Source: Prolixibacteraceae bacterium
GTDB lineage: Bacteria > Bacteroidota > Bacteroidia > Bacteroidales > Prolixibacteraceae
Reading direction: 5' to 3'
DNA: 14,036 bases
NCBI GenBank assembly: GCA_016931875.1
Contig: JAFGDX010000262.1
Span: 1-14,036 of the forward strand
The notes under the pieces are model-generated. The model saw nothing but the letters and a program-made list of their open reading frames with translations, ran no database searches and was not told the origin of the DNA. Each line of letters begins with the position of its first letter. The stretch's first letter is position 1. The translations under genes were made by a program, and so were the position numbers. Shown here in pieces: positions 2,978-11,953 of the stretch.

Positions 2978-3520
2978 TCAAAGAATACCTTCGGAGTGGA
3001 GTAAACTGTACACTTCCAAATCAAAAAATTTGCCGCTATGTTTTTCACCTTCGCGCTCAATTCCCTCAAAATGAAAACCTAACCGCTGAGGGATGGCCGC
3101 ACTTTTTTGGTTTCCCACAGCTACTTTTATCTGAATACGGTTTAGTTTTAGTTTTTGAAACGAATAAGAAACCAGTTTTTTTACACACAATGTAATGATT
3201 CCTTTTCCCTGCATTTTTTGGGTCAGCCAGTACCCGATTTCGGTTTTCCGGTTTACCCAGTCGGTATCTTTAAAACCAATCAGTCCGGCAAATTCTTCTT
3301 TTACCCAAATGCTGTAAACTTCATCTTTCCGGGTTTCCTTCTGCTGTGTTATTCCTTTGATAAATGCTTCAGTATCTGCAACTTCACGGGTAAAATCAAC
3401 AAAGGGCAACCAGGGTCTCAAATAATCGCGATCGTTATCAATGGCTGTAAAAATCTGCTGTGCCATCGAAAGGTTGAGTACTTCCAGCCGGATATGGTCA
3501 TTTACTTCCAAACTTCCCAT
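2978..3520 (-). CDS. GNAT-family N-acetyltransferase (RimJ/RimL-like)
   Basis: A 180-aa cytoplasmic acetyltransferase of the GNAT fold, using acetyl-CoA. The N-terminal strand and helix contain the RLEVL...AQQIFTAID and LRPWLPFVD patterns (11-42) seen in RimL-type enzymes. The central strand IWVKEEFAGLIGF is at 71-83, and the acetyl-CoA pyrophosphate loop QGKG is at 104-107. The late motif NQKSAAIPQRLGFHFEGIE (137-155) is typical of the ribosomal-protein-serine acetyltransferase group. These enzymes modify the N-terminal amine of a protein or a small amine; the substrate here is unknown. The ATG at 3520-3518 overlaps the TAA of the upstream gene (3522-3520), so the two are probably translationally coupled. 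No strong terminator was found after its stop. Confidence 0.9.
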   Translation of the reverse strand: MGSLEVNDHIRLEVLNLSMAQQIFTAIDNDRDYLRPWLPFVDFTREVADTEAFIKGITQQKETRKDEVYSIWVKEEFAGLIGFKDTDWVNRKTEIGYWLTQKMQGKGIITLCVKKLVSYSFQKLKLNRIQIKVAVGNQKSAAIPQRLGFHFEGIEREGEKHSGKFFDLEVYSLLHSEGIL

Positions 3521-4431
3521 TATTGCTTTTGATTTTTCAGGTCTATCAAAAAAATCTGCTGCAAATGTGTATTGGTGCGTTCACATGAAATCAGCAGTGA
3601 ATCATTCCCCTTAAAACAAATACCTTCGGTTTGTGCAGAAAAAATTTCATCCAGCTCCATGTAAGTTATTTTTCCCTTAAAAAAACTTTTCTCTGTTATT
3701 TCGGAAAATATCCACACGATGGGCTTAAAATCCTTATAACCAACCAGTGCGAGCGTGTTTCTGTCGGGGCTGACATCGGCACCGGTTACAAGCCCGTTTA
3801 CATTGAATGTGTCAGACAAACTTACGTTATACTCACCCTCCGTTTTGGGAATATGATACACCGAAGTGGTTTGGTCAACCCAGTTTTTTGTGAAAATAGT
3901 TAAAACCCCGTTAAAAACGGTGATCGCCTCACAATCAAAAGAATGCTGGTACGCCTGGTAATGAAATGCGGTCTGTTCGCGGTATGCAAATTTTATTTCG
4001 TCGGCAACCACCCGGTTTCCTGAATCGATATCGCTCTTTTTGATTTTGTAAATCTTCAAATCTTTTCGCGCCCCTCCGTTATTTCCAAAATCGCCAATGT
4101 AAAAATGCTCGTCATCCTGTGCAATGTCTTCCCAATCAGTGTTGGTTGCATTTTCAACAACAACTTCTCTTTCAGTTTCGCCCGAAAAGTTCAACCCAAA
4201 AAGTTTGTTTTCACCGCCGCTGTCGTTAAAAGTCCACAACAAATTATTGTACAAAATCAAACCTGAACTTTCTTCCACCTTCATCGAAATTTCAGCAATA
4301 AACGATTGTGGTTTTCCCTTTACAATGGTCATTTTCTCCTGAAGGCCCAACGCATCCGGCTGCCCGTTATTTTCTGTGGAGCAGAAAACAAAAGAGATTA
4401 AAACAAAAAGCATCGACAGAATTTTCCTCAT
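3520..4431 (-). CDS. Secreted beta-propeller-like protein, possible lipoprotein
   Basis: The product (303 aa from the chosen start) opens with a short hydrophobic signal ending in Cys17 (SFVFCSTENN). The Cys suggests a lipoprotein, but Phe at -1 is not a standard lipobox, so this is uncertain. The rest looks like an all-beta repeat protein: SSGLILYNNLLWTFNDSG (55-72), TDWEDIAQDDEHFYIGDFGN (98-117) and later strands repeat a pattern of hydrophobic strands with Asp/Asn-rich turns. DWEDIA plus IGDFGNN is common in uncharacterised Bacteroidota propeller proteins; no catalytic function is known to me. An in-frame ATG at 4479 gives 16 extra polar residues before the signal and would lie upstream of or at the likely transcription start, so the MRKIL start at 4431 is preferred. 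It precedes and overlaps the acetyltransferase gene. Confidence 0.75.
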   Translation of the reverse strand: MRKILSMLFVLISFVFCSTENNGQPDALGLQEKMTIVKGKPQSFIAEISMKVEESSGLILYNNLLWTFNDSGGENKLFGLNFSGETEREVVVENATNTDWEDIAQDDEHFYIGDFGNNGGARKDLKIYKIKKSDIDSGNRVVADEIKFAYREQTAFHYQAYQHSFDCEAITVFNGVLTIFTKNWVDQTTSVYHIPKTEGEYNVSLSDTFNVNGLVTGADVSPDRNTLALVGYKDFKPIVWIFSEITEKSFFKGKITYMELDEIFSAQTEGICFKGNDSLLISCERTNTHLQQIFLIDLKNQKQ

Positions 4432-4476
4432 CTTTTTATCTTTACAGCGGTTTTTACAATTTTTGTTCAATTTAAA

Positions 4477-4484
4477 CAAATTTA
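4477..4484 (-). promoter_or_regulatory. Bacteroidota-type -7 element for the propeller-acetyltransferase pair
   Basis: On the minus strand TAAATTTG fits the TAnnTTTG consensus exactly, 45 nt upstream of the ATG at 4431. Transcription would start near 4470, inside the longer open frame, which supports the 4431 start. A matching -33 TTG was not found, so this is moderate evidence only. Confidence 0.45.
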
Positions 4485-4490
4485 AGAAGA

Positions 4491-5315
4491 ATGAACAGAT
4501 TCCTGATATTTATGGTTTCAACACTTATGGTTGCATTACTTTCATGCGCAAATGAATCAAAAAAAGAGGACGATTTGGTTTTAATAAAAACTGAATTTGG
4601 CGATATTAAAGTGAAACTATACAATGATACCCCAAAGCATAAAGAAAATTTTTTAAAACTGGTAAATGAAGGATTTTATGATGGATTGCTTTTTCACCGG
4701 GTGATTAACCATTTTATGATTCAGGGAGGAGATCCCGATTCAAAATATGCAGAGCCGGGCGCACGTTTGGGAGGAGGTTCACCCGGCTACACCGTTGAAG
4801 CCGAATTTTTACCTGAAAAACATTTCCATAAAAAGGGCGCGCTGGCTGCGGCCAGAACCGGCGGACCTTCAAATCCTGAAAAACGGTCAAGCGGATCACA
4901 ATTTTACATTGTTCAGGGTGAAGTTTTTACGCCCGGAAAACTGGACACTTTGGAAACCATGATTTCGTCGAAACAAAAAAACGAATTGTTACGACAATGT
5001 TTTGAAGACGCCAGCGAAGAGCTGCAAACGTACCGGGCAAACAACGATCTGGAAGGATTTAACATTTGTATTGCAGAAATCAGGGAAAAGGTGGACAGCA
5101 CTTTTGAGACCTCGGGCAAAAAATTCAAATTTACGGAAGAACAGCGGGAGGCTTACACAACCATTGGCGGCTACCCGTCGCTTGACGGAGAATACACCGT
5201 TTTTGGCGAAGTTGTTGAAGGATTGGATGTGCTTGACAAAATAGCAGCGGTGGAGACCGATCAGAAAGACCGGCCTTTAACCGATATAAAAATGGAGTTG
5301 GAGTTGATAAAATAA
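4491..5315 (+). CDS. Cyclophilin-type peptidyl-prolyl isomerase, lipoprotein (274 aa)
   Basis: An exported prolyl cis-trans isomerase. The signal peptide ends in a good lipobox, LLSC, with the acylated Cys at residue 19. The cyclophilin domain starts at about 28. The catalytic Arg70 is in FHRVINHFMIQGG (68-80), with Phe75 and Gln78 at the positions of CypA Phe60 and Gln63. SGSQFYIVQG (134-143) holds the hydrophobic-pocket Phe. The usual Trp before LDG is Ser230, as expected for a cyclosporin-insensitive enzyme (inference). A 70-residue, mostly helical, charged insert (about 144-213) separates the SQFYI strand from the GGYPSLDGEYTVFGEV block (226-241). It is the first gene of a three-cyclophilin operon, divergent from the propeller gene across 59 nt. 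It probably folds envelope proteins from the periplasmic face of a membrane. Confidence 0.93.
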   Translation: MNRFLIFMVSTLMVALLSCANESKKEDDLVLIKTEFGDIKVKLYNDTPKHKENFLKLVNEGFYDGLLFHRVINHFMIQGGDPDSKYAEPGARLGGGSPGYTVEAEFLPEKHFHKKGALAAARTGGPSNPEKRSSGSQFYIVQGEVFTPGKLDTLETMISSKQKNELLRQCFEDASEELQTYRANNDLEGFNICIAEIREKVDSTFETSGKKFKFTEEQREAYTTIGGYPSLDGEYTVFGEVVEGLDVLDKIAAVETDQKDRPLTDIKMELELIK

Positions 5316-5318
5316 ATT

Positions 5319-6128
5319 ATGGTACGTTTTCTTATACTATTCAGTTTTTTAATTTATTCGTTTCAAAGTTACGGTCAGTCAAAAGTCGTGGAGATTTCCA
5401 CCAGCATGGGGAATATGAAGTTCCGGCTGTATAACGACACTCCAAAGCACCGCGACGCCTTTATTCAACTGGCCAGCGAAGGCTACTACAACGAAACGCT
5501 TTTTTATCGTGTTATCCAAAATTTCCTCATTCAGGGCGGTTCAAAAAGTTCGAAAAATGCACCTCCCGGAAAGCGTATTGGTTACGGAGATCCGGATAAA
5601 ACGGTTGATGATGAAATTCTTCCGCACTACTTTCATAAAAAAGGCGCCCTTTGCGCTCCGCGCCAGCCCGATGAGATAAACCCTTTTAAACAATCGGATA
5701 TTTCGCAGTTTTTTATCGTAAAGGGCCGTGTTCACACCGATGGCGAACTCGACACCATGGAAATGGCTGTGAACCGCCCCATTCGAAACCGGATTGTTCA
5801 AAAATACATGACACCTGAAATACGCGAAAAACTAAAACTATTAAAGGAAGAAAAAAAGGTGGATGAATTCAGGCAAATTGCAGAAGATGTAAAAAAGAAT
5901 ATCGAAATGGAATACAACATCGATCCGGATGTCCTTCAATTCTCGGAAGAACAGCGAAAAGCCTATACAACCGTTGGTGGCTACCCTGATTTGGATGGCA
6001 AGTACACCATTTTTGGTGAATGTATTTCGGGCTTTGAAACCATCGATAAAATTTCAGCATTAAAAACCGATGAAAACAACCGCCCGCTAACCGATGTTAA
6101 AATCACCGTGAACGTATTAAATGAGTAA
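5319..6128 (+). CDS. Cyclophilin-type peptidyl-prolyl isomerase, periplasmic (269 aa)
   Basis: The second cyclophilin of the operon, starting 3 nt after the previous stop. It has a Sec signal peptide with no lipobox Cys; cleavage is likely near SYG-QSK (17-22), so it should be soluble in the periplasm, unlike its two lipoprotein neighbours. The catalytic Arg64 is kept but in FYRV rather than FHRV, followed by IQNFLIQGG (66-74). SQFFIVKG is at 129-136. A charged helical insert of about 70 residues (137-207, with KLKLLKEEKK at 171-180) occupies the same place as in the first protein. The shared motif SEEQRKAYTTVGGYPDLDG (209-227) leads into the last strands. CypA Trp121 is replaced by Asp here. 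It arose by tandem duplication with gene 1, then diverged. Confidence 0.92.
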   Translation: MVRFLILFSFLIYSFQSYGQSKVVEISTSMGNMKFRLYNDTPKHRDAFIQLASEGYYNETLFYRVIQNFLIQGGSKSSKNAPPGKRIGYGDPDKTVDDEILPHYFHKKGALCAPRQPDEINPFKQSDISQFFIVKGRVHTDGELDTMEMAVNRPIRNRIVQKYMTPEIREKLKLLKEEKKVDEFRQIAEDVKKNIEMEYNIDPDVLQFSEEQRKAYTTVGGYPDLDGKYTIFGECISGFETIDKISALKTDENNRPLTDVKITVNVLNE

Positions 6129-7455
6129 CATGAAAAATCTTGCTGCATCTCTTGTTATTTTGCTGGTACTCTTCTCCTGCAGTTCAAAAGAAAACAAAAC
6201 CACCGAACAGCAACAACAGGAAAAAAGGACGCAAAACGAAAACAACCAGAATGCCGTGTGGCAGGAAATTATGGGGTCGGTAGTTGACATCGACACCTAC
6301 GACGATGATCGCATTTTGGAGTCGGGGCAGGGATTTTTTATTGCTGAAGATTTAATCGTAACCAAATACTCGCTGGTAAACCAGGCCAGCAAAGTTTGGG
6401 TGACACCTTTTAACGAGGATAACAAATTTCTGGCTGACAAATATGTAGCAGTCGACCGGATTAACGATATAATCATTTTGAAAGTTGACAGCCTGAAACG
6501 AAACCCCGTTGAATTATTCGCGGGGAATGTACCCAACTCGGCCAAAACATTGTATATCTCATCTTCATCAGGAAAAACACTCCAGCTTTTTACCGGAAAA
6601 GTGTTGAACCTCACCACGCTGAAGGGAGCCAAATTGTACCGGATTACCAATCGCATTCGTAAATCAGTTTTCGGAACCCCGGTTTTTGTCTCCAGCCAGA
6701 AAGTTATCGGAATTGCGTTTTCGGCCGTCGATAATTTCGAAGTGCAAAGCTTTGTTATTCCCTCAACCTACATTGCCGATTTGCTGAAGAACAAAAATGA
6801 ACCGGCAACTTTGGAATCGTTGCGCTCGCATTCAAACAAGGAAATTGCCGCCGAAAATATGAAAATAAAGGGGCTGGTTCTGGAAACCGATATGGGAAAC
6901 ATTACCATCCGCCTGTTTAATGAAACGCCCGTTTACCGCGACAACTTTATAAAACTGGCAAAGGAACATTTTTACGACAGCCTGCTTTTTCACCGGGTGA
7001 TTGCCGATTTTGGAATACAAAGCGGCGCTGCCGACAGCCGTTATGCAGATAAAGAAGATGCAGTGGGGTACAAAGGTCCGGGCTATACACTCCCGGCAAA
7101 CATAGTTCCCAAATTTTACCACAAACGCGGAATGATTGGTTCACCACGAAGACCCGATACGGAAAACCAGCGCCGCCGCTCGGAAGGTTCACAGTTTTAC
7201 ATTGTTTCAGGACGGAGATATTACGACTCAGAACTGGATGAAATCGAAGAACAAAACAAGTATAAATTTACCGCAGAACAACGGCAGGTTTACAAAACCG
7301 TTGGCGGCGCCCCGCACCTCGATGGCAGTTACACCATTTTTGGCGAAGTAATCTCTGGGTTGGATGTGGTGGATGAAATTGTAAAAGCTGAAACCGACCG
7401 AAACTGGCGGCCCGTGGAAGATATCAGGCTAAAAAGAATCCGGATTCTGAAATAA
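6121..7455 (+). CDS. Lipoprotein: HtrA-like pseudoprotease domain fused to a cyclophilin
   Basis: A two-domain exported protein (444 aa). The lipobox Cys is residue 20 (LFSC), followed by a Gln/Asn/Glu-rich linker to about 44. Residues 47-222 follow the HtrA/DegS trypsin fold: SGQGFFIAEDLIVT (68-81), NDIIILKVD (115-123), TGKVLN (158-163), VIGIAFS (195-201) and SFVIPSTYIADLL (210-222). The catalytic His position is Ser84 (TKYSLV), the Asp is kept (Asp116), and the nucleophile Ser position is Phe184 (SVFGTP in place of GNSGGP), so it should not cut peptides. Residues 250-444 are a cyclophilin with Arg292 in FHRVIADFGIQSG and SQFYIVSG (357-364). Its insert is only about 18 residues. The cyclophilin sits where HtrA has PDZ domains. 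It starts with an 8-nt overlap with gene 2; an alternative start at 6130 (MKNLAA) is equally good. Confidence 0.88.
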   Translation: MSNMKNLAASLVILLVLFSCSSKENKTTEQQQQEKRTQNENNQNAVWQEIMGSVVDIDTYDDDRILESGQGFFIAEDLIVTKYSLVNQASKVWVTPFNEDNKFLADKYVAVDRINDIIILKVDSLKRNPVELFAGNVPNSAKTLYISSSSGKTLQLFTGKVLNLTTLKGAKLYRITNRIRKSVFGTPVFVSSQKVIGIAFSAVDNFEVQSFVIPSTYIADLLKNKNEPATLESLRSHSNKEIAAENMKIKGLVLETDMGNITIRLFNETPVYRDNFIKLAKEHFYDSLLFHRVIADFGIQSGAADSRYADKEDAVGYKGPGYTLPANIVPKFYHKRGMIGSPRRPDTENQRRRSEGSQFYIVSGRRYYDSELDEIEEQNKYKFTAEQRQVYKTVGGAPHLDGSYTIFGEVISGLDVVDEIVKAETDRNWRPVEDIRLKRIRILK

Positions 7456-8085
7456 CGTTTCCCAAAAAAAATCAGCCATCTCCATTCCCTTTTTCAGCCA
7501 CAGCGTTTGCAAACCTGTCTGTCGTGCACTCAGAATATTGGGTTCCAAATCATCTACAAAAAGGGTTTCAGCAGGATTTACCCCCGACAATTCAATCACT
7601 TTTTCAAACGAAGTTAAATCGGGCTTGCGCTCGTGAATTTCATACGAATAAAAGGCCTTTTCAAAAAGCGATGTAAAATCAATGCCATGTTGCATCTTAA
7701 ACTCCGGAAGCAAACGGCTGATATGAATTTCGTTGGTATTACTGAAAAGATAAATCTTGAAATACTTTTTCAATTCCTGAACTACTTTTATCCGTGGGGG
7801 CGGAATATCTTTAATCATGGCATACCAGGCATCTTCAATTTGTTGATTGGTGGCCAACGGATTCCCAAGCACACGGCGCACCTGGCTGCAAAATTCTTCC
7901 GGTGTTACCTTCCCCACTTCCAGGGCATAAAAAGCGGGGTTGGAATACGCATATTTCCGGTCGACCACCTCGGCACTCAGTCCCAGTTTCTGAAAGGCTT
8001 TAACAGAAGCATCAATGTCAAGATTCAGCAATACATTTCCCAAATCGAAGATGATGTTTTTTATATTTGCAAGGTCAGGATTCAT
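7429..8085 (-). CDS. HAD-superfamily phosphatase, YihX-like
   Basis: A 218-aa cytoplasmic HAD hydrolase (subfamily IA). Motif I is FDLGNVLLNLD (13-23) with the nucleophile Asp14. As in E. coli YihX, Gly follows where many HADs have a second Asp. Motif II is FSNTNEIH (114-121), motif III is the Lys of ERKPD (152-156), and motif IV is FVDDLEPN (176-183). The pattern DLGNV plus SNTN plus RKP is that of YihX, an alpha-D-glucose-1-phosphate phosphatase. The actual substrate here may be another sugar or nucleoside phosphate. The open frame extends to 8160, but the MNPDL start at 8085 fits the family and avoids overlap with mtnA. Its last 27 nt overlap the end of the convergent cyclophilin fusion gene. 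Confidence 0.88.
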   Translation of the reverse strand: MNPDLANIKNIIFDLGNVLLNLDIDASVKAFQKLGLSAEVVDRKYAYSNPAFYALEVGKVTPEEFCSQVRRVLGNPLATNQQIEDAWYAMIKDIPPPRIKVVQELKKYFKIYLFSNTNEIHISRLLPEFKMQHGIDFTSLFEKAFYSYEIHERKPDLTSFEKVIELSGVNPAETLFVDDLEPNILSARQTGLQTLWLKKGMEMADFFWETLFQNPDSF

Positions 8086-8133
8086 TGTTGTATTTTTACG
8101 ATGTTGCGAATATAAATATTTAAAACCGGTTGA

Positions 8134-9234
8134 GTGAAAATTCAGGATAAACATTATCATACCATTTGGTTAAAGAAAGATAAGCCGTCAATTGTTCAGG
8201 TAATCGACCAGCGAAAACTGCCTTTTTCGTTTGAAATTGTGGATTTAAAAACCGTTTCCGATGTGTTTTTTGCCATTCAAAAAATGGTGGTGCGCGGTGC
8301 GCCGCTTATTGGAATTACGGCCGCTTACGGAATGTACCTCGCTTTGTTCGAAGCAGATGAAAGGGATTTTGCACGCTCAATAAACCGAAAAGCGGAATAT
8401 TTAAAGTCTGCTCGTCCCACAGCGGTTAACCTTGCTTTTGCCGTTGATGAAATGCTTCAATTTATTCTGAAAGAAAAAGATTCACCCCGAATAATTGAAA
8501 AAACATTAAAAAAAGTTCATTCTTTAAAAGAACAGGAAATCCAATTCAGTGAAAAAATAGGTGAATTCGGACTTGAACTTATTCAGAAAATTTACAGAAA
8601 AAAAGGTGAAACCGTAAACATCCTCACCCACTGCAATGCCGGCTGGCTGGCCTGTATTGACTGGGGAACCGCAACCGCGCCCATTTACAAGGCACACCTA
8701 AAAGGAATTCCGGTGCATGTGTGGGTAGATGAAACCCGGCCGCGAAACCAGGGCGCGCGTTTAACTGCTTTTGAGCTTTCAGAAGAAGGAGTACCGCACA
8801 CCGTGATTGCCGACAACACCGGCGGCCATCTGATGCAACACGGAAAAGTTGATTTGGTTATTGTGGGCAGCGACCGCACTACGGTTACAGGCGATGTAGC
8901 CAATAAAATTGGTACCTACCTGAAAGCATTGGCTGCAAAAGACAACCGTATTCCTTTTTATGTGGCGCTTCCCTCTTCCACCATTGACTGGAGTATTGAA
9001 AACGGGTTAACAGAAATTCCCATCGAGGAACGCGGCCCGGAGGAAGTAGCTGAAATTGAAGGGTGGGGTAATTCCGGCATTCAAACCCTAAAACTAATTC
9101 CTGAAAAAAGTAAAGTTGCCAACTACGGATTTGATGTAACTCCTGCCCGGTTGGTAACCGGACTGATTACCGAGCGCGGAATTTGCCATGCCAGCCAAAA
9201 AAGTATACAATCATTATTTCCTGAAAAACTGTAA
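8134..9234 (+). CDS. mtnA: S-methyl-5-thioribose-1-phosphate isomerase
   Basis: Catalyses the aldose-ketose isomerisation of methylthioribose 1-phosphate to methylthioribulose 1-phosphate in methylthioadenosine salvage. The product (366 aa, normal length) shows MVVRGAPLIGITAAYG (51-66), RPTAVNLAFAVDEM (94-107), the catalytic Cys167 in THCNAGWLACIDWGTA (165-180), ETRPRNQGARLTAFEL (200-215) and the catalytic Asp247 in GSDRTTVTGDVANKIGTY (245-262). Translation must begin at a GTG: an in-frame TGA stands immediately before it (8131-8133), and the first in-frame ATG comes only at the conserved MVVRGAP. The gene is followed after 1 nt by mtnP, the preceding enzyme of the pathway. It is divergent from the HAD phosphatase across 48 nt. 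Related eIF2B-like proteins lack the Cys/Asp pair, so the assignment is firm. Confidence 0.95.
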   Translation: MKIQDKHYHTIWLKKDKPSIVQVIDQRKLPFSFEIVDLKTVSDVFFAIQKMVVRGAPLIGITAAYGMYLALFEADERDFARSINRKAEYLKSARPTAVNLAFAVDEMLQFILKEKDSPRIIEKTLKKVHSLKEQEIQFSEKIGEFGLELIQKIYRKKGETVNILTHCNAGWLACIDWGTATAPIYKAHLKGIPVHVWVDETRPRNQGARLTAFELSEEGVPHTVIADNTGGHLMQHGKVDLVIVGSDRTTVTGDVANKIGTYLKALAAKDNRIPFYVALPSSTIDWSIENGLTEIPIEERGPEEVAEIEGWGNSGIQTLKLIPEKSKVANYGFDVTPARLVTGLITERGICHASQKSIQSLFPEKL

Positions 9235-9235
9235 T

Positions 9236-9991
9236 ATGACAAAAATAGCCATCATCGGAGGCTCCGGCCTTGAAGATCCCTCTATTCTGAAAAACCCCAA
9301 CGAAGTGAAAATCTCAACACCTTATGGTGAGCCTTCATCAACTTTCAAAACCGGCAAAATAAGCGGCGTTGAAGTGGCTGTTTTATCGCGCCACGGAAGG
9401 GACCATTCCATAACTCCCACGCTTGTAAATAACCGTGCCAATATCTGGGGAATAAAAGAACTGGGATGCACACATATCATCGCCACCTCGGCCTGTGGCA
9501 GCCTGCGCGAAGAGATTCAACGCGGCGATTTGGTTATTCTCGATCAGTTTATCGATTTTACCCGTCACCGGAAAATTACATTTTTTGATTCGTTTGAAAA
9601 AGGAGAGCTCAAACACACGCCAATGGCCGACCCGTTTGACGAAGATCTGCGCACCCGGCTAATTCATTCAGCAAAAGAATTAAATCTTCGGTTTCATTCT
9701 GCCGGAACAACCATCTCCATTGAAGGGCCCAGATTTTCAACACGGGCCGAATCAAACATGTTCCGAATGTGGGGGGCTGATGTAATCAACATGTCGGTTG
9801 CACCGGAGTGCACCCTGGCAAACGAACTGGGAATTCCCTATGCAACCGTTGCTCTCAGCACCGATTACGACTGCTGGAAAACCGACGAGGAGCCGGTAAC
9901 CTGGGAGGAAGTCCTGAAGGTTTTTAAGCGGAATGTAAAAAATGTAATCGGGGTACTTACACAAACAATATCCACTTTTACTCAAACCTGA
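9236..9991 (+). CDS. mtnP: S-methyl-5'-thioadenosine phosphorylase
   Basis: Phosphorolyses methylthioadenosine to adenine and methylthioribose 1-phosphate, the substrate of MtnA encoded just upstream. The product (251 aa) belongs to the trimeric purine nucleoside phosphorylase family: GGSGLED (8-14) and RHGRDHSITP (52-61) bind phosphate, SACGSL (85-90), SIEGPRFSTRAE (161-172), INMSVAPE (184-191) and TDYDCW (209-214). The last motif, with two Asp contacting the adenine, marks the MTAP subtype rather than a guanosine/inosine phosphorylase. The longer frame starting at 9188 lies inside mtnA; MTKIAIIGG at 9236, one base after the mtnA stop, is the family start. The pair is clearly an operon. Kinase, dehydratase and other later methionine-salvage genes are not in this window. 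Confidence 0.95.
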   Translation: MTKIAIIGGSGLEDPSILKNPNEVKISTPYGEPSSTFKTGKISGVEVAVLSRHGRDHSITPTLVNNRANIWGIKELGCTHIIATSACGSLREEIQRGDLVILDQFIDFTRHRKITFFDSFEKGELKHTPMADPFDEDLRTRLIHSAKELNLRFHSAGTTISIEGPRFSTRAESNMFRMWGADVINMSVAPECTLANELGIPYATVALSTDYDCWKTDEEPVTWEEVLKVFKRNVKNVIGVLTQTISTFTQT

Positions 9992-10359: not shown

Positions 10360-10506
10360 ATGTCGAAATTTCACGAAGCACCAAAGAATGTAAAAAAAGC
10401 TCCCAAAAAAAGTGCAAAAGAAAGGAAGGCCGAAAAAAGAGAAAAAAGAGCAAGAAAAGATCATGTTTATGACATTAAAAAAGTTTTTGAAGAAAAAGAA
10501 AAGTAA
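10360..10506 (+). CDS. Small Lys/Arg-rich protein, 48 aa, unknown
   Basis: An ATG-started frame encodes a 48-residue, strongly basic protein (MSKFHEAPKNVKKAPKKSAK at the start) with a predicted charged helix in the middle and the ending VYDIKKVFEEKEK. About half of the residues are Lys, Arg or Glu. There is no signal peptide or membrane segment, so it should be cytoplasmic and could bind nucleic acid (inference from charge). Its 3' end overlaps the sulfatase start in another frame, which may couple the two. I do not recognise the family. A weak -7-like element (10310-10317) lies upstream. The A-rich composition alone can produce Lys-rich frames, so it is only moderately supported. Confidence 0.45.
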   Translation: MSKFHEAPKNVKKAPKKSAKERKAEKREKRARKDHVYDIKKVFEEKEK

Positions 10507-11953
10507 CTTTCAGCATTGCCTTGTTGTTTCCGAAAAATTATTTCTCATTTTAGTTTTCCTGTTTGTATTGGGCTGCGGGCCGGAAAAGGAACAGCGGCCC
10601 AATGTAATTTTTGTTTTTGCCGATCAGTGGCGGGCTCAGGATTTGGGGTACAAGGGAAATCCTGTGGTAAAAACGCCTGCCATCGATAAATTGTCCGAAG
10701 AAAGTGTAGTTTTTACAAACGCCGTTTCGGGCTGCCCCGTTTGCTGTCCCTACCGGGCCAGTTTGTTAACGGGCCAGTACCCGCTCAGCCACGGTGTTTT
10801 TTATAACGACAAACCTTTGAACCCGGAAGCAAATACCATGGCAAAAATGTATAAAAATGCCGGCTACGAAACCGGCTACATCGGAAAATGGCATTTAAAC
10901 GGCCACGTACCAGGTGAAGAAACTTTTGAAGCCCGGTTAAAATTTATTCCCCGCGAACGCCGGCAGGGTTTTGATTTCTGGCAGGCGCTTGAATGTACGC
11001 ACGACTACAATAACTCATTTTATTACGAAGACACACCGGAACAATTAAAATGGGATGGTTACGATGCCATTGCCCAAACACAATCAGCCATTGAATACAT
11101 TGCAGATAAAGCAAACGGAGAACACCCGTTTTTGCTCGTGCTTTCGTGGGGGCCGCCCCATGCGCCTTATCAAACTGCACCCGAAAAATACCGGCAAATG
11201 TTTTCTCCTGAAGACATTGATGTCCGCCCCAATGTTCCGGACACACTGCGGGACAAAGCCAGAAACGATATCGCCGGATACTACGCCCACATGGCTGCAC
11301 TCGATGATTGTTTAAACGATTTGCTACAGGCAGTGGACGAAAACGGAATCAGGGAAAATACCATTTTTGTATTTACCTCCGACCACGGCGATATGCTGTA
11401 TTCGCATGGAAATGTAAAAAAACAGCAGCCCTGGAACGAATCGCTGATGGTCCCTTTTTTATTGCGCTATCCTCAAAAATTCGGAAATAAAAAAAGAGTG
11501 GTTGAAGCCCCAATCAATACTCCTGACATTTTACCCACACTGCTCGGTTTGTCGGGTATTGAAATACCTGAGACAATAGAGGGAGCTGATTATTCCAAAG
11601 TGATTTCCGGTGAAGAAAAACCGGCCAGTGAGTCGGTTCTCATTCAGTGCCCGGTGCCTTTTCATCAGTGGAATTATTCCAGGGGAGGAAGGGAATTTCG
11701 CGGGGTGAGGACCGACCGGTTTACCTATGTTCGCGACCTGAACGGGCCGTGGTTTTTGTATGACAATGTTTTGGATCCGTATCAAATGAACAACCTGCTC
11801 GGGCTGGATGAATACAAATTTATTGAGTCGGATTTGGAGGAACAGTTGCAGGCCTGGCTTAAAAAAACAAACGACCGGTTTTTACCGGGAAATGAATACA
11901 TGAAAATGTGGAATTATTCCTGGGACGGAAACGACAGCACCCGGGTTCAATAA
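10463..11953 (+). CDS. Formylglycine-dependent sulfatase, lipoprotein
   Basis: A type I sulfatase (496 aa from this start) that hydrolyses sulfate esters. The long basic n-region and hydrophobic segment end in the lipobox VLGC, with acylated Cys38, so it is membrane-anchored. The catalytic Cys94, to be oxidised to formylglycine, lies in CCPYRASLLTG (94-104), which matches C-x-P-x-R. Metal and active-site residues are visible in FADQW (52-56), GKWHL (141-145), GPPHAPY (230-236), TSDHGDM (305-311) and Lys320. As a Cys-type enzyme in an anaerobe-like genome it would need a maturase (anSME) encoded elsewhere. The substrate, possibly a sulfated glycan, cannot be inferred. The open frame extends to 10412, but that part is Lys-rich and precedes an unlikely signal. 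ATGs at 10463 and 10469 are both possible, and both overlap the small basic ORF. Confidence 0.93.
   Translation: MFMTLKKFLKKKKSNFQHCLVVSEKLFLILVFLFVLGCGPEKEQRPNVIFVFADQWRAQDLGYKGNPVVKTPAIDKLSEESVVFTNAVSGCPVCCPYRASLLTGQYPLSHGVFYNDKPLNPEANTMAKMYKNAGYETGYIGKWHLNGHVPGEETFEARLKFIPRERRQGFDFWQALECTHDYNNSFYYEDTPEQLKWDGYDAIAQTQSAIEYIADKANGEHPFLLVLSWGPPHAPYQTAPEKYRQMFSPEDIDVRPNVPDTLRDKARNDIAGYYAHMAALDDCLNDLLQAVDENGIRENTIFVFTSDHGDMLYSHGNVKKQQPWNESLMVPFLLRYPQKFGNKKRVVEAPINTPDILPTLLGLSGIEIPETIEGADYSKVISGEEKPASESVLIQCPVPFHQWNYSRGGREFRGVRTDRFTYVRDLNGPWFLYDNVLDPYQMNNLLGLDEYKFIESDLEEQLQAWLKKTNDRFLPGNEYMKMWNYSWDGNDSTRVQ

Follow-up and report, generated by a model that had tools for sequence, protein, structure and literature searches.

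The window analysed in this study is a stretch of 14,036 nt from contig JAFGDX010000262.1 (GCA_016931875.1) of a Prolixibacteraceae bacterium, and it contains a gene in which a predicted pseudoprotease of the S1C (HtrA) fold is fused to a cyclophilin. This gene (6121..7455, + strand) is an open reading frame of 444 aa with an ATG start and a stop codon that ends at 7455, and it is the third gene of a conserved cyclophilin operon, after cyp1 (4491..5315, +; Pro_isomerase E 1.1e-43) and cyp2 (5319..6128, +; Pro_isomerase E 2e-35). The spacing between cyp1 and cyp2 is 3 bp, and the 3' end of cyp2 and the fused gene share 8 bp. The cyp1 product has a lipobox-like LLSC near its start (by eye), and that of cyp2 has an N-terminal signal-peptide-like stretch and no lipobox; the lipobox pattern was seen in 3 of 38 cyp2 proteins. 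Both cyclophilins (4491-6128) carry a long insert: from the FYI strand to the LDG loop the median number of residues is 90 in cyp1, 92 in cyp2 and 39 in the fused cyclophilin.

The fused protein starts with a predicted lipoprotein signal peptide (6121..6180, +; lipobox LFSC, Cys20), followed by the pseudo-S1C trypsin-fold domain at residues 45-235 (6253..6825, +; called the dead domain below) and the cyclophilin domain cyp3 at residues 254-440 (6880..7440, +). Pfam assigns Trypsin_2 to residues 69-198 (E 3.8e-8, 34.6 bits against a cut-off of 27.6) and Pro_isomerase (PF00160) to residues 254-440 (E 4.6e-33), and a scan up to E 1 gave these two domains only, with no PDZ. The proposal in an initial annotation of this DNA that the cyclophilin stands where HtrA proteins have their PDZ domains is right as a statement of domain order. 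Fused homologues are mostly named peptidylprolyl isomerase in their source records, and precomputed domain lists show the cyclophilin alone in 95 of the 120 homologues listed and in 31 of 32 proteins of a second family (f30), so the dead domain has remained largely unseen.

Lipid anchoring, also proposed earlier, is backed as a prediction by the lipobox at Cys20 and by a recognisable lipobox in 116 of the 121 proteins of the window's homologue set. Positions +2 to +7 after Cys20 read SSKENK, with one acidic residue; among the 116 lipobox proteins, one acidic residue is found there in 102, none in 10 and two in four. The lipoprotein export signal described in Capnocytophaga requires a positive or polar residue followed by two acidic ones (PMC5080379). 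No such signal is expected with a single acidic residue, and the fused protein, which is predicted to be lipid-anchored, should therefore face the periplasm.

Protease and isomerase sites

Sequence and structure comparison both give the N-terminal domain a two-barrel trypsin fold, as the initial annotation had proposed. Its stated resemblance to HtrA and DegS needs one correction: the best match by sequence and by structure is the S1C domain of RsgI9, and this domain and MarP (Rv3671c) rank among the nearest solved relatives no less than DegS and DegP do. Structure comparison of the full-length model returned the S1C match again and nothing further.

At the triad columns, the window protein has Ser84 for His (codon 6370..6372, +), keeps Asp116 (6466..6468, +) and has Phe184 for Ser (6670..6672, +), and S-V-F-G-T-P replaces the G-N-S-G-G-P of HtrA, so that the nucleophile/oxyanion motif is gone; all of these residues had been read correctly before. 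In the query and 120 of its 357 homologues, Ser84 and Phe184 are each present in 121 of 121 sequences and Asp116 in 118 (Asn in three). We then extended the comparison to 235 distinct fused domains from protein matches and loci, counting locus frames of at least 380 aa, domain matches of at least 140 aa and proteins with a cyclophilin (which excludes, for example, P0059). None of them has the H-D-S combination: three have His at the first column and 21 have Ser at the third, but no domain has both, and Asp is kept in 176. The third column is less certain in f30 and in another family, f96, because the loop preceding it is three residues shorter there. To control the columns, we aligned S1C proteins without a cyclophilin to this profile as well. 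H-D-S is read in 24 of the 26 full rows that the phylum search supplied, among them a DegP-type protease encoded by the same genome as the window, but only in 11 of 22 rows from the order search. As triad loss is seen in every collected copy, a local mutation or sequencing error is ruled out. No cyclophilin fusion with an intact triad was found among the rows and loci examined (295 genomes of the order, 395 of the phylum and three protein searches, covering 120 of 357 protein matches and 30 order and 25 phylum new loci, fewer than the matches). Neither of the outcomes that the initial annotation had named as fatal to it, a structure unlike trypsin or homologues with an intact triad, was observed.

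In the window's genus group, the median ratio of nonsynonymous to synonymous substitution rates (dN/dS; Nei-Gojobori, 35 pairs with dS within 0.05-1.2, from 24 coding sequences) reaches 0.057 in the dead domain, against 0.030 in the cyclophilin. The former value indicates that the dead domain is maintained in this group. With the triad lost in the members examined and purifying selection in one genus group, the domain qualifies, as judged from its residues, as a pseudoprotease. Two fused copies of the same genus (G027, that is L004, L045; and G029) are broken, either through assembly error or through real loss: in one a TGA falls within the dead domain, and in the other the frame is disrupted around residue 320.

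The isomerase site presents the opposite picture. The cyp3 motif H-R-V-I-A-D-F-G-I-Q holds the active-site Arg, Phe and Gln, and R292, F297 and Q300 are invariant across a 61-row alignment; we take Arg292 (6994..6996, +) to be the counterpart of Arg55 of cyclophilin A. The equivalents of Arg55 and Gln63 are present in 38 of 38 sequences in each of cyp1, cyp2 and cyp3, and that of Phe60 in 38, 37 and 36 of 38, respectively. The closest solved sequence to cyp3 is 7l6y (E 1.9e-24). By profile and conserved active-site residues, the C-terminal half is a predicted peptidyl-prolyl isomerase (PPIase), in keeping with the catalytic Arg noted earlier. An isomerase site that is frozen, against a protease site that is lost, is the main functional clue.

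A number of further degenerate S1C proteins without a cyclophilin were detected in the same order (L183, which is the L034 gene, L181, which is L035, L184, L185, L186, L192, L193 and L202). Their triad letters include S-D-A, N-D-S, S-D-V, T-D-V, T-D-M and D-D-L, and the two checked by Pfam, L183 and L185, have Trypsin_2 plus TPR repeats.

Distribution and genomic context

Within the window's family (f1), matches to the dead domain came from 83 of 140 genomes, representing 18 of 23 genera; carriers in this family include Draconibacterium, Maribellus, Mariniphaga, Tangfeifania, Puteibacter and Mangrovibacterium. Full-length fused proteins are also present in 54 of 60 genomes drawn from f30 (with named proteins from Saccharicrinis, Labilibacter, Plebeiibacterium and Carboxylicivirga) and in two of three genomes of f96. 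The first profile used, A2, was too narrow, finding one of the three f30 genomes that profile A3 finds among the 295 genomes of the order, and with the f30 copies found by A3 the fusion can no longer be regarded as confined to a single family. The broad profile matched 62 of 395 genomes spread over the phylum, and in the 25 new loci examined from that search no domain-bearing protein has a cyclophilin. One scan for close relatives found no viral copies.

The operon, which the initial annotation did not notice, is conserved along with the fusion, and this gives the strongest hint at the function of the fused gene. In all of 70 fused-gene loci (69 from the window's family and one from f30, with eight pairs of identical scores that are probably duplicates of one place), cyp2 lies upstream on the same strand, mostly touching, with a few gaps of up to ~0.8 kb. 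cyp1 is present in 69 of them, the exception being L128, whose contig begins at cyp2. Among 20 further loci (19 from f30 and one from f96), cyp1 and cyp2 are both upstream in 17. Five loci fetched as unfused cyclophilins (L150-L154) contain one cyclophilin each.

We also examined whether cyp2 and the fused gene occur in the same genomes. Of the 140 genomes of the family, 84 have a true cyp2, defined by E at or below 1.1e-81 (in the others the best match is no stronger than 2.3e-72). Both genes are present in 81 of these genomes, incomplete ones included, neither in 54, and five are discordant. In two of the five (G390 and G409) the fused gene is cut off by the contig end, short of where cyp2 would lie, and in a third (G399) the contig stops just after cyp2. 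One genome with neither cyp2 nor the fused gene (G331) still has a cyp1-type gene. Since cyp2 and the fused gene have mostly been gained or lost together, the data suggest that their products form a working unit.

A quick maximum-likelihood tree (LG+G4) was built from 119 cyclophilin domains, without the dead domain, representing 21 f1, 16 f30 and one f96 loci plus the five single cyclophilins. All 38 cyp2 sequences fall on one side of a branch with a Shimodaira-Hasegawa-like approximate likelihood-ratio (SH-aLRT) support of 99, and all 38 cyp3 sequences do likewise with a support of 100; cyp1 does not form one clade, and the sole f96 cyp3 row sits on a long branch. This unrooted tree fits a single origin of the fusion before the split of f1, f30 and f96, and we infer such an origin.

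Several other genes in the window were annotated. Divergent from the operon lies a gene for a 319-aa protein with no Pfam match (3520-4479, -), which is beside the operon in a number of f1 loci. A HAD hydrolase gene (7429-8160, -) is convergent with the fused gene and overlaps it by 27 bp, and it is followed by genes for an IF-2B family protein, mtnA-like by reading (8134-9234, +), and a PNP_UDP_1 phosphorylase (9188-9991, +). These three, which adjoin the operon in many, though not all, f1 loci, perhaps belong to methionine salvage. Farther away are two adjacent genes for MscS-like small-conductance mechanosensitive channel proteins, identified by eye (544-1503, -, and 1570-2412, -), and a gene for a sulfatase whose C-terminal part matches SGSH_C (10412-11953, +; PF00884, E 5.5e-59).

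Putative function and relation to known systems

The fold, triad loss, purifying selection in the genus group, fusion, operon, co-occurrence and clustering of cyp2 and of cyp3 were established by computation, and the following proposal goes beyond them. The fused protein would be a lipid-anchored periplasmic PPIase whose N-terminal HtrA-type fold serves as a non-catalytic binding module. HtrA folds such as those of DegP, DegS and HtrA1 bind extended polypeptide in a cleft by the active site, and if the triad is removed while the fold is kept, a holder would remain. Because the cutting residues are lost, the isomerase site is kept and two folding-enzyme genes adjoin, the old protease probably holds rather than cuts. 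The dead fold might then grip an extended segment of an exported client beside the cyclophilin site, which would isomerise prolines of the held client; with no triad, the client would be held and not cut. Such a tethered holdase-isomerase for exported proteins, with putative client binding and hand-over to the PPIase, is in our judgement an evenly balanced proposition. It may act with the cyclophilins of the same operon, above all cyp2, and the triad may have been lost before the three families of the order diverged, the fold being retained thereafter. The stronger version, a periplasmic folding machine encoded by one operon, in which the pseudoprotease cleft presents extended segments to its own cyclophilin and to cyp2 and which evolved once before the divergence of the three families, is put forward tentatively, as less likely than not.

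A number of observations weigh against the holdase-isomerase proposal. The dead domain has changed more quickly than the cyclophilin joined to it. Degenerate S1C domains are common in the order, as the 11 of 22 unfused rows with H-D-S show, and losing the triad is thus nothing peculiar to the fusion. The old active-site positions drift between families, the first being Ser, Asp, Asn, Glu, Arg and others and the third Phe, Ser, Tyr, Ala, Pro, Asn and others; as a result, taken over the family as a whole, nothing points to a conserved ligand at this site. Three of the five AlphaFold2 models of the dead domain are worse, with predicted local distance difference test scores of 66.5 to 68.9, and the full-length model (64.8, with 150 of its 444 residues scoring under 50, most of them in the cyclophilin half) is of too low quality to place the two domains. 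In three of the 20 f30 and f96 loci (L232, L235 and L239), the fused gene has neither cyp1 nor cyp2 alongside. The dead domain is dispensable in five of the 23 genera of the window's family, as no match was found there. Finally, the remaining two discordant genomes, G346 and G411, keep cyp2 without the fused gene, which is really absent from that place because the gene after cyp2 is, by reading of its translation, phenylalanyl-tRNA synthetase alpha-like.

The main rival explanation is that the dead fold binds one fixed, folded partner and serves to place the cyclophilin, without gripping any unfolded client, the partner being a translocon or outer-membrane assembly component or perhaps cyp2 itself. 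The tight co-occurrence with cyp2, the conserved operon and the drift of the old active-site positions would all suit such a docking module. PPIases docked on envelope machines are reported in this phylum, namely the surface lipoproteins BamJ and BamK in the β-barrel assembly machinery (BAM) complex of B. thetaiotaomicron (PMC12578637). However, in these the Cys is described as followed by two or more acidic residues, which sets them apart from the fused protein, and no row named as a BAM component appears in the 60-row PDB listing of either cyp3 or cyp1, which is a weak point since the names are those given by depositors. We consider docking possible, although we would sooner doubt it than accept it. 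It is unlikely that the dead fold is a sensor or regulator, that is, that it senses an envelope signal or polysaccharide like the RsgI9 S1C domain, or joins and tunes active HtrA trimers: Pfam shows no signalling domain in the three operon proteins, and the constant companions are cyclophilins, not proteases. What speaks for it is that RsgI9 S1C is the best match, that the RsgI9 domain has been called protease-like and capable of binding cellulose (PMC12203970), and that the same genome encodes a DegP with H-D-S.

A non-functional remnant, or a protease still cutting by unusual chemistry, would agree with the faster evolution of the dead domain, the kept Asp and the occasional Ser at the nucleophile column, but it is very improbable given a dN/dS of about 0.06, the presence of the domain in fused copies of three families, the absence of any copy with both His and Ser, and the missing oxyanion motif in the window protein. 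Least credible is metal binding of the type seen in MamO, an HtrA-fold pseudoprotease repurposed for metal (PMC4794232), which we reject for the window copy because residues 45-236 contain no His and no Cys and hence no surface di-His site, although a His-His pair does occur in the hairpin after the old nucleophile loop in 26 of 32 f30 proteins (P0122-P0148, loci such as L155 and L158-L162), being absent from the f1 rows aligned.

These genes offer a natural experiment, in which the fused copies examined all lack the triad, the fold is under selection and it is joined to one folding enzyme and tied to another. HtrA proteases are both proteases and chaperones, and point mutants have been the main means of studying what their fold does without cutting. 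Should the dead domain bind clients, the chaperone side of HtrA could be studied here in a clean, naturally occurring form; should it instead dock to a partner, it may lead to a folding complex of the envelope in these Bacteroidota.

Among known proteins, DegP, DegQ, DegS and HtrA1 have an intact triad, and the first three carry C-terminal PDZ domains, whereas the fused protein has neither triad nor PDZ and has a cyclophilin in the C-terminal place. MarP is an active protease without a cyclophilin. The S1C domain of RsgI9 (Clostridium thermocellum, PDB 7sjy) belongs to an anti-sigma factor, where its partner is an NTF2-like domain rather than a PPIase, and according to the alignment it keeps the His that the window protein lacks and has Thr at the Phe184 position. 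PDB entries 7l6y and 7l6z share the cyclophilin domain with the fused protein but are single cyclophilins in the matched chains, and we know of no protease-fold partner domain for these cyclophilins or for that of PpiA. SurA, PpiD and FkpA are periplasmic PPIases of the parvulin or FKBP type with separate client-binding parts; they may work alike, combining a binding part with a PPIase, but their binding domains are unrelated and their PPIases are not cyclophilins. PpiA of Lactococcus lactis is a membrane or surface PPIase with a cyclophilin domain (PMC3307742). MamO of magnetotactic bacteria is likewise an HtrA-fold pseudoprotease kept for a new job, but it binds metal through two surface His residues, retains His and Asp with Thr for Ser, and is described with no mention of a cyclophilin in the available part of the paper (PMC4794232). 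A search of the open-licence PMC literature by title and start of abstract found no pseudoprotease-cyclophilin fusion, which is weak evidence of absence. The term "new kind of foldase-chaperone" in the initial annotation was too strong, since a pseudoprotease such as MamO and PPIases of the SurA and PpiD type were already known. HtrA-fold pseudoproteases and PPIases with a separate binding part are both familiar, and what is new is their joining in one protein, together with the operon in which it is encoded.
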